NCBI RefSeq assembly: GCF_016406145.1
Contig: NZ_CP066306.1
Location: 4,526,001 to 4,590,000, forward strand
Length of the DNA: 64,000 nt
Source of the DNA: Pseudomonas putida
Lineage (GTDB): Bacteria > Pseudomonadota > Gammaproteobacteria > Pseudomonadales > Pseudomonadaceae
Reading direction: 5' to 3'
A program made the translations under genes and the position numbers. The notes beneath the pieces are model-generated. The model ran no database searches and was not told the DNA's origin. It saw nothing but the letters and a program-made list of their open reading frames with translations. Positions 40,435-42,556 of the stretch are shown here, in pieces; within the stretch, counting starts at the first letter, position 1; the number at the start of each line of letters is the position of its first letter.

Positions 40435-41541
40435 TCAGTCCCGCAGATCCGACTCATGTATCGGATTCGCCCGGCTGGTAGCCCGTTGATACTGCGCCGG
40501 CCACGTAGCCCTGTTACCGCCCAGGTCATCATCGGCATGCAACGGCCAGTAAGGGTCGCGCAGCAGCTCGCGGGCGAGGAAGATCAGGTCGGCCTGCCCG
40601 GTGCGCAGGATGTGTTCAGCCTGGGCCGGTTCGGTGATCATGCCCACCGTACCGGTGGCGATTTCCGATTCCTTGCGTACACGCTCGGCGAAGCGGGTCT
40701 GGTAGCCGGGGCCGGTGGGGATTTCGGCATTCATCGAAGTACCGCCGGAGGACACATCGATCAAGTCGACTCCGAGCGCTCGCAGGCGACGGGCCAGTTC
40801 TACTGTTTCGTCGGGGTTCCAGCCGTCTTCCACCCAGTCGGTCGCCGACACGCGAACGAACAGCGGCAGTTCCTTCGGCCAAACCTTACGCACCGCCTCG
40901 GTCACCTGCAGCGTAAGGCGGATGCGGTTTTCGAAACAGCTGCCATATTCGTCACGGCGCTGATTGCTTAGCGGCGAGAGGAACTGATGCAGCAGGTAGC
41001 CATGGGCGGCGTGGATCTCGACTACCTTGAAGCCCGCTTGCAATGCCCGTTCGGTGGCTTTGACAAACTCGGCTACAACATCCTGGATCTCGTCTTTGCT
41101 CAACTCACGCGGTGCCGTGTGTTCAGGGTCGAAGGCAATTTTCGACGGCCCCACCGGCTGCCAGCCTCCTTCCTCGATCTTGACGCTGCCATGCTTGCCC
41201 AGCCAGGGGCGATGGGTGCTGGCCTTGCGCCCGGCGTGGGCCAGCTGGATGCCCGGCACGGCGCCCTGCGCGGTGATGAAGCGGGTGATGCGTTGCAGTG
41301 GGGCGACCTGTTCATCGTTCCACAGACCAAGGTCCTCGGCAGTGATCCGGCCATCGGCGGTCACAGCGACCGCTTCGGTGATGACCAGCCCGGCACCACC
41401 GACGGCGCGGCTACCCAAATGGACAAGGTGCCAGTCGTTGGCCAGGCCATCGACAGCGGAATACTGGCACATCGGCGAGACAGCGATGCGGTTGGGCAAC
41501 GTCAGCTGACGCAGGGTGTAAGGCTCGAGCAGCAGGCTCAT
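40435..41541 (-). CDS. Old Yellow Enzyme-family NADH:flavin oxidoreductase (YqjM/XenA-like)
   Basis: A 368-residue FMN-dependent ene-reductase. The start (LLEPYTLRQLTLPNRIAVSP, MCQYSAVDGLANDWHLVHLG) with the MCQYS cysteine is typical of the YqjM/XenA class. Further motifs are GIQLAHAGRKASTHRPW, VEIHAAHGYLLHQFLSPLSN with the substrate-binding histidines, and a C-terminal ADLIFLARELLRDPYWPLHA FMN phosphate site. It probably reduces activated alkenes, quinones or nitro compounds; the natural substrate is unknown. The ATG at 41541 (MSLLLEPYTL) was chosen over an unsupported 18-codon extension. Confidence 0.93.
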   Translation of the reverse strand: MSLLLEPYTLRQLTLPNRIAVSPMCQYSAVDGLANDWHLVHLGSRAVGGAGLVITEAVAVTADGRITAEDLGLWNDEQVAPLQRITRFITAQGAVPGIQLAHAGRKASTHRPWLGKHGSVKIEEGGWQPVGPSKIAFDPEHTAPRELSKDEIQDVVAEFVKATERALQAGFKVVEIHAAHGYLLHQFLSPLSNQRRDEYGSCFENRIRLTLQVTEAVRKVWPKELPLFVRVSATDWVEDGWNPDETVELARRLRALGVDLIDVSSGGTSMNAEIPTGPGYQTRFAERVRKESEIATGTVGMITEPAQAEHILRTGQADLIFLARELLRDPYWPLHADDDLGGNRATWPAQYQRATSRANPIHESDLRD

Positions 41542-41800
41542 GAGGGCACCTCCCAAGGACTCCAATGGTGATCCGGCCCGGGCATTCAAGTGCACATCCC
41601 TGGCCCGGTGCCGGTCATTAATCAGACTAGACCAGATTGGTGGGGGGGAAGGTTCCCTGAGATTGCTGACTGCTCCGACGCGCGCATCAGATGTTTCCTA
41701 CACATATGAGCTAGCGATACCTAGATCAGGAAAATATCCTACGAATCTTGTCGACTCGCGGCTGATTGTCCCTGGAAACCCCACCCTTTAGGCTTTTCGT
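41542..41800. other. Gene-free stretch upstream of the Old Yellow Enzyme gene
   Basis: This stretch should contain the promoter of the minus-strand oxidoreductase gene and is more A/T-rich than the coding DNA around it. A weak plus-strand frame at 41540-41791 has no ribosome-binding site or protein-like features. I see no other defined element here; the structured leader begins at about 41825. Confidence 0.5.
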
Positions 41801-41824
41801 GTCGCTGATGTTTGGCGTCCGGGA

Positions 41825-41993
41825 GTGGAATCCTGTCAATTACTGAGTTGCTGTCGTCATGGCAGTTGTGCGCGGGAGGCCGCAAAGCCTACCGGGTTTA
41901 CTCGTAGCCTGGATTCCACACCGCGTACAACTGCCACCCATCCGTGTGGAATCGGACAGGTCGGTCAATCAGTAACCTTACGAGTCGTTCACT
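41825..41993 (+). promoter_or_regulatory. Highly structured leader upstream of the DUF6124 gene (candidate cis-regulatory RNA)
   Basis: Complementary segments read from the sequence: A 41825-41833 with A' 41911-41919 (9 bp perfect); B 41861-41875 with B' 41921-41935 (15 bp, one G-U); D 41840-41846 with D' 41969-41975 (7 bp); A'' 41912-41921 with C 41944-41953 (10 bp perfect); E 41900-41906 with E' 41979-41985 (7 bp). A small AGGC/GCCT hairpin lies at 41877-41890. B-B' nests within D-D'. A''-C nests within E-E', which covers the weak GAG ribosome-binding site at 41982-41984. The two folds cannot coexist, a design typical of riboswitches or attenuators. A role in DNA rather than RNA is not excluded. 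Confidence 0.6.
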
Positions 41994-42275
41994 ATGAAAA
42001 AACTAGTCCCCGATCCGCCCCACCATTTCGACCTTCCCTCCGACAAGACCCTGACCAACGCCGTGAGCGATGGCATCGTGCCAATCGATCACGTGTTGAT
42101 GAACGTCACCCACTACCTGATGCTCGCTTACAACCATTGCCATCGAGTCCTCGATGCCGTCGAAGATGACAGCTCCCGGGAATCGCTTGTGAATGGGCTG
42201 CGTGCCCTGCAGATTGCCTGGGGCCAAGCAGATGCGCTGTCATTGGCCTTGGAGCGTACTACTACCCTGCATTGA
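41994..42275 (+). CDS. DUF6124 (DUF3077-related) family small protein
   Basis: A 93-residue protein starting MKKLVPDPPHHFDLPSDKTL. The N-terminal PDPP segment and the helical middle (DHVLMNVTHYLMLAYNHCHR, GLRALQIAWGQADALSLALE) fit the DUF6124 family, formerly grouped with DUF3077, which is widespread and multi-copy in Pseudomonas; function unknown. Only a weak GAG ribosome-binding site precedes the ATG, and it can be paired in the upstream leader. It is followed by a REP pair and a broken DUF3077 gene. Confidence 0.8.
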   Translation: MKKLVPDPPHHFDLPSDKTLTNAVSDGIVPIDHVLMNVTHYLMLAYNHCHRVLDAVEDDSSRESLVNGLRALQIAWGQADALSLALERTTTLH

Positions 42276-42286
42276 GGTTGGATTCA

Positions 42287-42384
42287 CTGGCCTCTTCGCG
42301 GGTAAACCTGCGGCCACAGGCGCATCACAGACCTCAAAACTTGCAGATGACCTGTGGGAGCTGGCTTGCCCACAAAGAGGCCAG
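42287..42384. repeat. Inverted pair of P. putida REP sequences
   Basis: REP copy 1 at 42287-42320 begins CTGGCCTCTTCGCGGGTAAA. Copy 2 at 42351-42384 is in opposite orientation and, reverse-complemented, begins CTGGCCTCTTTGTGGGCAAG; both end CCACAGG. A 30-base spacer separates them. Such pairs (BIMEs) are dispersed in P. putida genomes and are mobilised by REP-associated tyrosine transposases; no such gene is in this window. Confidence 0.85.
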
Positions 42385-42418
42385 AACAGGCAATCGAGAA
42401 ACTTCAGGAGGGAATTCG

Positions 42419-42556
42419 ATGACCACAGACGGCACCCACTTTACTGTCGGGAAGACCACCTTCTTTCAGGGTGAACACCAGACTCACCCACTGTTCCGCA
42501 TCGAGCCAGGGAAATCGAGCGCCGCCCCCCGCAAAGACCAAGTCAGGCAATTGTAG
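42419..42556 (+). pseudogene. Truncated DUF3077-family gene
   Basis: A good ribosome-binding site (AGGAGGG) precedes an ATG at 42419 whose product begins FTVGKTTFFQGEHQTHPLFR, the characteristic N-terminus of DUF3077 proteins (usually about 90-100 residues). It stops after only 45 codons at TAG 42554-42556. The last codons read QVRQL then stop then TGC, where intact relatives have, as I recall, Q-x-x-LL(G)C, so a nonsense change is likely. The recJ 3' end begins 5 bases later, so the remaining C-terminal part has been lost. Confidence 0.7.

Follow-up and report, generated by a model that had tools for sequence, protein, structure and literature searches.

The leader of a small gene starting at position 41994 of the window, the 64,000-nucleotide stretch of Pseudomonas putida DNA analysed here, raises the question of what its dense self-complementarity means. 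The first-pass annotation had read it as two mutually exclusive nested folds, one of which hides the ribosome-binding site (RBS), and had proposed a riboswitch, thermosensor or attenuator. The comparison with Rfam that it had suggested, run over the whole window, revealed a sole gathering-level match, which covers the full model (1-87) of the C4 antisense RNA (RF01695) and lies within this leader. The leader thus matches a known antisense RNA and not the proposed class. What had been read as two competing folds is a chromosomal copy of the phage C4 antisense RNA together with its two target sites: the first fold is the C4 molecule and the second is the duplex of C4 with its targets, so that the element is classed as an antisense RNA and not as a riboswitch or thermosensor. 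The features of the locus are as follows.

41694..41742, plus strand: TTTCCTAC...TCCTAC element, upstream of the promoter-like motif
41766..41794, plus strand: predicted promoter, TTGTCC, 17 nt, TAGGCT; predicted start about 41800-41802
41788..41839, plus strand: degenerate c4-a1b1 element (upstream targets), RF03163, 15.6 bits against a gathering score of 46.7
41855..41941, plus strand: C4 antisense RNA, RF01695, 56 bits against a gathering score of 45
41860-41876/41920-41936, plus strand: C4 stem P1
41877-41881/41886-41890, plus strand: C4 stem P2
41891-41895/41908-41912, plus strand: C4 stem P3
41896..41907, plus strand: P3 loop, containing the loop segment 41900-41906, labelled a' here
41912..41921, plus strand: junction segment between P3 and the closing stem, labelled b' here
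41944..41953, plus strand: junction target, upstream of the RBS, 10 bp, labelled b2 here (C in the first-pass annotation)
41979..41985, plus strand: loop target, -15 to -9 of the start codon, containing the GAG RBS, 7 bp, labelled a2 here (E' in the first-pass annotation)
41994..42275, plus strand: first gene, encoding a 93-residue protein that starts MKKLVPDPP, predicted helical, a distant DUF3077 relative by profile
42419..42556, plus strand: second cassette gene, DUF3077-like, cut to 45 codons, ending next to recJ

All helices named in the first-pass annotation were found where it had placed them. Its B-B' (41860-41875/41921-41936, 16 nt, 94%) is the closing stem of C4, its A''-C (41912-41921/41944-41953, 10 bp) is the pairing of the junction with its target, and its E-E' (41900-41906/41979-41985, 7 bp) is the pairing of the P3 loop with the RBS, each of them supported by relatives. 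The segment 41825-41833, which it had described as complementary to 41911-41919, lies inside a 12-nt arm pair (92%) and corresponds to an upstream copy of the junction target. The outer helix D-D' (41840-41846/41969-41975, 7 bp) is likewise present, but as a helix it lacks comparative support. A D-D' run of at least 7 occurs in only 1 of 121 leaders, namely that of the window itself; the mean run over all 121 leaders is 4.40 versus 4.22 after permutation (53 of 5000 permutations as good), when the test is confined to the window's target class (23 leaders), permutations do as well in 475 of 5000 cases. D-D' was set aside as a functional helix, with nothing in its favour beyond this slight overall excess among the 121 leaders.

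The membership of the window element in the C4 family is well supported, and comparison of sequences establishes the fold. Across 27 C4 sequences from the same genome, of which that of the window is the lowest-scoring, 94.6% of cells are paired in the C4 fold, compared to 33-41% in slid controls, and 17 of the 27 base pairs show changes on both sides. The covariation that the first-pass annotation had proposed to look for across homologues is therefore present, both in the pairs of the C4 fold and in the matches between loops and leaders. By analogy, the 5' end of the mature C4 is predicted at G41861, where RNase P probably cuts; P1 of the window starts with GGC, and GGW is the usual start of P1 in the accessible text of PMC5320573. 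Members of the C4 family are processed by RNase P to a length of about 77 nt.

The leader strand folds with a z-score of -2.41 (5 of 200 shuffles as good), and nested folding in cis gives -72.9 kcal/mol for the C4 fold versus -60.8 kcal/mol with both target duplexes. The mutual exclusivity claimed for the two folds holds for such nested folding in cis; judging from the coordinates, it need not extend to a pseudoknot or to pairing in trans. The junction segment 41912-41921 overlaps the closing stem by one to two bases and P3 by one base. With so small an overlap, P1 should not have to open for a folded C4, once released, to bind a different transcript, and the coordinates suggest that closing stem and target duplex may be compatible, either in a pseudoknot or in trans.

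Upstream of C4, the promoter-like motif is conserved. The pattern TTG-N3-N17-TANNNT, picked after inspection of the loci in the window's own genome, lies within 170 nt before 149 of 169 C4s versus 6.3 in mononucleotide shuffles, which preserve base composition only, here as well as for the runs between loops and leaders. Spacings of 14, 16, 18, 19 and 20 are found before 3, 0, 7, 2 and 0 C4s, compared to about 5-6 in shuffles, and a spacing of 15 before 20 C4s (5.2 in shuffles); in the window's own genome, the 17-nt form precedes 21 of the 27 C4s. With a predicted start near 41801, all the elements would lie on one transcript, from the upstream target through C4 to the two downstream targets. 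The first-pass annotation had held that a start downstream of about 41950 would speak against a regulated leader; the promoter-like motif lies upstream of that point. A stricter sigma-70 scan reported no promoter in 41500-42500, nor is there a plus-strand terminator-like site in this interval, the single such site being on the minus strand and at chance frequency.

Further upstream, the TTTCCTAC...TCCTAC element has one match in the window versus 0.01 expected in shuffles, and may be the site of a regulator. Similar elements stand upstream of paralogues, as judged by eye.

Matches as long as those of the two downstream targets seldom arise in shuffles. In mononucleotide shuffles of the 55-nt window leader, a P3-loop run of at least 7 arises in 367 of 20000, a junction run of at least 10 in 4 of 20000, and both together in 0 of 20000; the target pattern of the window occurs once in its own genome. 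Upstream of C4, a permissive Rfam scan of 41500-42500 gave the weak match to c4-a1b1 (RF03163), the upstream target element of C4 transcripts, of which the genome holds 18 copies, 10 over the cut-off. In the window copy one of the two targets is clear: 41825-41833 is a 9-nt copy of the junction target, labelled b1 here, whereas the loop target has no recognisable counterpart upstream of C4 here (run 4). Among the 121 leaders, upstream copies with a run of at least 7 are found for the junction target in 120 and for the loop target in 57. The loop target lies at a median of -13 to -6 of the start codon (104 of 123 leaders with a run of at least 6).

In the published mode of action, the loops of the processed C4 pair with target mRNAs (accessible parts of PMC5320573 and PMC12197685). 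In the geometry published for this pairing, b' partly occludes the RBS and the variable a' binds upstream, as far as the accessible text of PMC5320573 goes. By contrast, it is the more variable P3 loop that pairs at the RBS here, and the junction that pairs upstream; either the a/b labels used here are reversed relative to the literature, or the geometry differs.

The loops and junctions of other loci indicate that C4s are matched to their own leaders. The set comprised 170 C4 entries, 40 of which, without a recognised VPDPP start, were left out (phage-like genes, window-family genes with a variant N-terminus, for example at L081, L094, L098 and L102, and gene-less or cut loci). Among the 130 VPDPP entries, 129 have enough upstream sequence, 123 are non-redundant and 121 encode a protein of at least 60 residues; the VPDPP genes were located by the VPDPP motif itself. 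As the 80 named VPDPP loci represent the top-ranking 80 of at least 196 confirmed relatives, the set is biased towards one protein family (87 of 121).

Within this set, the cognate complementarity is established by exact run lengths. Exact complementarity between a loop and its cognate leader averages 7.17 nt, compared to 4.03 nt with the leaders of other loci (n = 121; 0 of 5000 permutations), and 81 of the 121 loops reach at least 7. No comparable excess was found in any control: for the loop, the start of the coding sequence gave 3.73 versus 3.78, the coding sequence at +60 gave 3.80 versus 3.69 (388 of 5000 as good) and the DNA upstream of the promoter gave 3.88 versus 3.79 (684 of 5000 as good); P2 against the leader gave 3.81 versus 3.86. 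Similarly, the junction matches its own target with a mean run of 7.11 versus 5.06 (0 of 20000 permutations, n = 123). In the window's own genome, both sites reach a run of at least 6 in 20 of 23 own pairs (all but L001, L005 and L007) and in 7 of 598 foreign pairs. Duplex energies also rank own pairs above foreign ones overall (0 of 100000 permutations at each site); this test took in bases of the P3 stem and was noisy, so it was replaced by the exact run lengths with controls. For the window C4, its own loop target ranks 15th of 23 by duplex energy and its own junction target 1st of 23, which suggests that the specificity of the window copy comes mostly from the junction.

The junction target follows the protein family: it is GTGGAA in 22 of 22 leaders of the window family, TTGACAG in 75 of 87 and GTGAGA in 7 of 8 leaders of the other two. 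The same families have 14 distinct loop targets in 22, 58 in 87 and 7 in 8, and distinct loops number 18 in the window's target class (23 leaders) and 51 in the TTGACAG class (75 leaders). From these sequences, we read the pairing as a two-part address, in which the junction code would follow the protein family and the loop code the individual copy.

The cassette consists of C4, a VPDPP gene and usually a DUF3077 gene: a DUF3077-like open reading frame lies at most 1.4 kb downstream in 105 of the 125 VPDPP loci that have at least 1 kb of downstream sequence. The first-pass annotation had called the first gene a DUF6124 gene. The 93-residue window protein itself has no Pfam or NCBIfam match up to an E-value of 10; the relation to DUF3077/DUF6124 stands for paralogues and at the level of profiles, with a probability of 93% (E 3.2e-7) in the comparison of VPDPP with DUF3077 proteins and with the paralogue at L022 narrowly missing the DUF6124 threshold (24.5 bits, cut-off 27). 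The first gene has no match in the PADLOC defence library and no credible PHROG match (best E 0.19). Its product is predicted to form a helical hairpin (mean pLDDT 91.2), and a structure search with this model returned no PDB or viral match at E 0.001 (best 0.67 and 0.2). Clues to a ferritin-like or rubrerythrin-like fold were discarded, the structural matches not being significant.

Substitution patterns establish that the first gene is under purifying selection: its dN/dS is 0.10-0.35 against 20 relatives and about 0.10 against L077 and L096, and the median over VPDPP genes is 0.155 (2939 non-independent pairs). The K-x-VPDPP start is common to 13 otherwise divergent proteins, which were selected by that motif. 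Synonymous bases vary in the first nine VPDPP codons, and variant starts are seen in P0004, P0014 and L081; the constraint on these nine codons appears to act at the level of the peptide. The truncated second gene looks as if recombination had cut the right end of the cassette. The accessible part of PMC9630843 reports a DUF3077 pseudogene of P. putida that carries a one-base insertion.

Comparison with relatives establishes that the cassette is an insertion of roughly 0.9 kb. Its flanks, which we take to be the genes of an Old-Yellow-Enzyme-like reductase and recJ, are adjacent without the cassette in 17 relatives, and among the 25 loci compared at this site C4 is present only in the window's own genome. 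A 98% identical gene with near-identical upstream sequence exists in one further genome (L077). Relatives of the window protein occupy 28 loci in 15 of 298 genomes of the genus, including the window's own and one paralogue. C4 is present at all 28 and at 78 of the 80 named VPDPP loci. The expectation that a similar layout precedes relatives elsewhere is thus confirmed, and sequence comparison bears out the description of a regulatory leader, with a pairing that would hide the RBS, before a multi-copy family.

Scoring 150 of 1683 candidates in the window's own genome gave 27 C4s that exceed the cut-off, a lower bound, whereas none of 14 control genomes had one. An open reading frame of the form M-(x)-K-x-VPDPP follows 21 of the 27 within 60 nt; 20 are intact, and that of L005 stops directly after the motif. 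The six C4s without a VPDPP gene either precede other open reading frames (L002, L011) or have no assigned target gene (L003, L010, L012, L017). Across the genus, C4 was found in 138 of 149 genomes (137 over the cut-off), with a median of at least 13 per genome and 34 genomes with at least 27; in the rest of the class, it was found in 17 of 273 genomes, each with 1 to 6 copies or more, as no more than 15 candidates per genome were scored. Other loci of the genus show C4 ahead of different genes: one encoding a Bro-N protein at L060, and at L051 a DUF3077 gene that follows it directly. Two VPDPP proteins, that of the window and one paralogue, had no match in 50,697 phage records, and a search of 72,556 plasmid records with one VPDPP protein gave a single match, whose locus also carries C4 and a DUF3077 gene. 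In IMG/VR, five contigs carry VPDPP relatives, with C4 in all five, four of them at most 2 kb from the contig end.

We propose that one promoter would yield a transcript comprising, in order, the upstream target, C4, the junction target, the loop target with the RBS, the first gene and, where present, the second gene. C4 would be released from it, with RNase P as the probable nuclease and G41861 as its probable cleavage site; the junction and the P3 loop, both exposed in the released RNA, would pair with the two targets on further copies of this transcript. Pairing at the RBS would switch off translation of the VPDPP protein, and an early stop of transcription would probably follow, by Rho in analogy with P1, in which C4 leads to Rho-dependent termination. 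As the copies mostly have their own loop code, each cassette should mainly silence itself. A shortage of C4 would allow the VPDPP proteins to be made; entry into a naive cell, loss of C4 and titration of C4 are candidate triggers. On the sequence evidence, C4 and its targets probably silence the small downstream gene, and we put the probability that a self-silencing chromosomal C4 cassette explains the locus as a whole at roughly 0.87.

This arrangement resembles the C4 of phages P1 and P7 (RF01695) in the P1-P2-P3 fold with exposed loop and junction segments, and in having downstream targets at the RBS in the same transcript and an upstream target copy. Unlike phage C4, the window type is chromosomal and present in many copies per genome, with a loop code that differs between most loci, and it precedes a VPDPP/DUF3077 cassette and not icd/ant. 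It does not appear to belong to a P1-type immunity operon: as a candidate antirepressor or Icd target, the first gene has no Pfam, NCBIfam, PADLOC or credible PHROG match, the first gene and one paralogue have no match in the 50,697 phage records, and the cassette is inserted between two genes that adjoin each other in 17 relatives. The CI immunity RNA of phage P4 is an antisense RNA that RNase P releases from the leader of the transcript it targets, and the window C4 may be likened to it in coming from such a leader. In type I toxin-antitoxin systems an antisense RNA blocks the translation of a small protein; unlike these, the window antisense RNA shares both strand and transcript with its target.

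The closest chromosomal parallel described in the accessible part of PMC5320573 is the Group 1 sRNAs of A. baumannii, with 21 similar chromosomal RNAs (15 full-length), a C4-like fold in all but three, a variable a' loop and RNA-seq coverage that fits processing at GGW. That part of the paper leaves their targets open, whereas here 20 of 23 gene-linked C4s match their own leader at two sites. The C4 of P1/P7 and multi-copy chromosomal C4-like RNAs of A. baumannii are thus already published, according to the accessible parts of PMC5320573, PMC8201110 and PMC2864571; no title on self-addressed Pseudomonas C4-VPDPP cassettes appeared in the openly accessible literature searched. Since most gene-linked C4s adjoin their own matching target, mode of action and specificity are directly testable. 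The cassettes offer a large natural set of antisense key-lock pairs, relevant to the origin of private RNA codes and to the design of orthogonal riboregulators, and give a handle on protein families annotated without function (VPDPP, DUF3077).

Other explanations share part of this evidence. A cis-acting leader that switches from the C4 fold to the RBS-hiding one, and back, on sensing a ligand or temperature, as a riboswitch, thermosensor or attenuator would, agrees with the competition of the nested folds and with the sequestration of the RBS in one of them, but is very improbable: in cis the C4 fold is the more stable by 12 kcal/mol, the sole gathering-level Rfam match is to an antisense RNA family, 41500-42500 holds no plus-strand terminator-like site, and the pairing segments vary and match locus by locus, whereas a ligand-binding core would be conserved. 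We regard as doubtful a selfish, addiction-like module in the layout of a type I toxin-antitoxin system, with a harmful VPDPP protein and C4 as its antitoxin. It would account for a small protein apparently silenced by an antisense RNA, for the many copies with mostly private addresses and for an insertion missing at this site in 17 relatives, and icd of P1, within the C4-controlled region, blocks cell division (accessible part of PMC8201110). However, the protein has no Pfam, NCBIfam or defence-library match, and a dN/dS near 0.15 does not discriminate. Moreover, L130 has an intact first gene, a junction target and a promoter-like motif but a truncated C4, which argues against a strongly toxic first protein; at L158, with an intact first gene and junction target, neither C4 nor, over the 300 nt preceding the gene, a promoter-like motif was found.

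A domesticated phage-immunity RNA, in which C4s would act mainly in trans on matching phages and the small genes would be sensors or passengers, is unlikely. In its favour, the C4 at L060 stands before a Bro-N protein, which is of the antirepressor type. The heteroimmunity of P1 and P7 provides a precedent in the accessible part of PMC12197685. The small genes are nevertheless under purifying selection, and the two-site match is present in 20 of 23 own pairs versus 7 of 598 foreign pairs. Pattern scans of viral contigs for the window code gave 30 and 14 loci, counts that allow many spacings and carry no chance expectation. Returning to the self-silencing C4 cassette, a broader version of it holds that Pseudomonas carries many evolutionarily mobile, autonomous cassettes, in each of which C4 silences its own VPDPP and DUF3077 genes through the two-part address, with an addiction or phage-sensing function and with keys that diversify by coupled changes of loop and target; this version is tentative, the balance leaning against it. 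An addiction-like or phage-sensing role of the cassette proteins is possible and, if true, would make the cassettes a private-key antisense network acting as an addiction or phage-sensing system.

L130 and L158, upstream of 3001, may be natural cases of derepression. In the window's own genome, the C4s L002, L010 and L012 form a tandem triplet at C1 4993654-4994255, two of them without a gene directly after.
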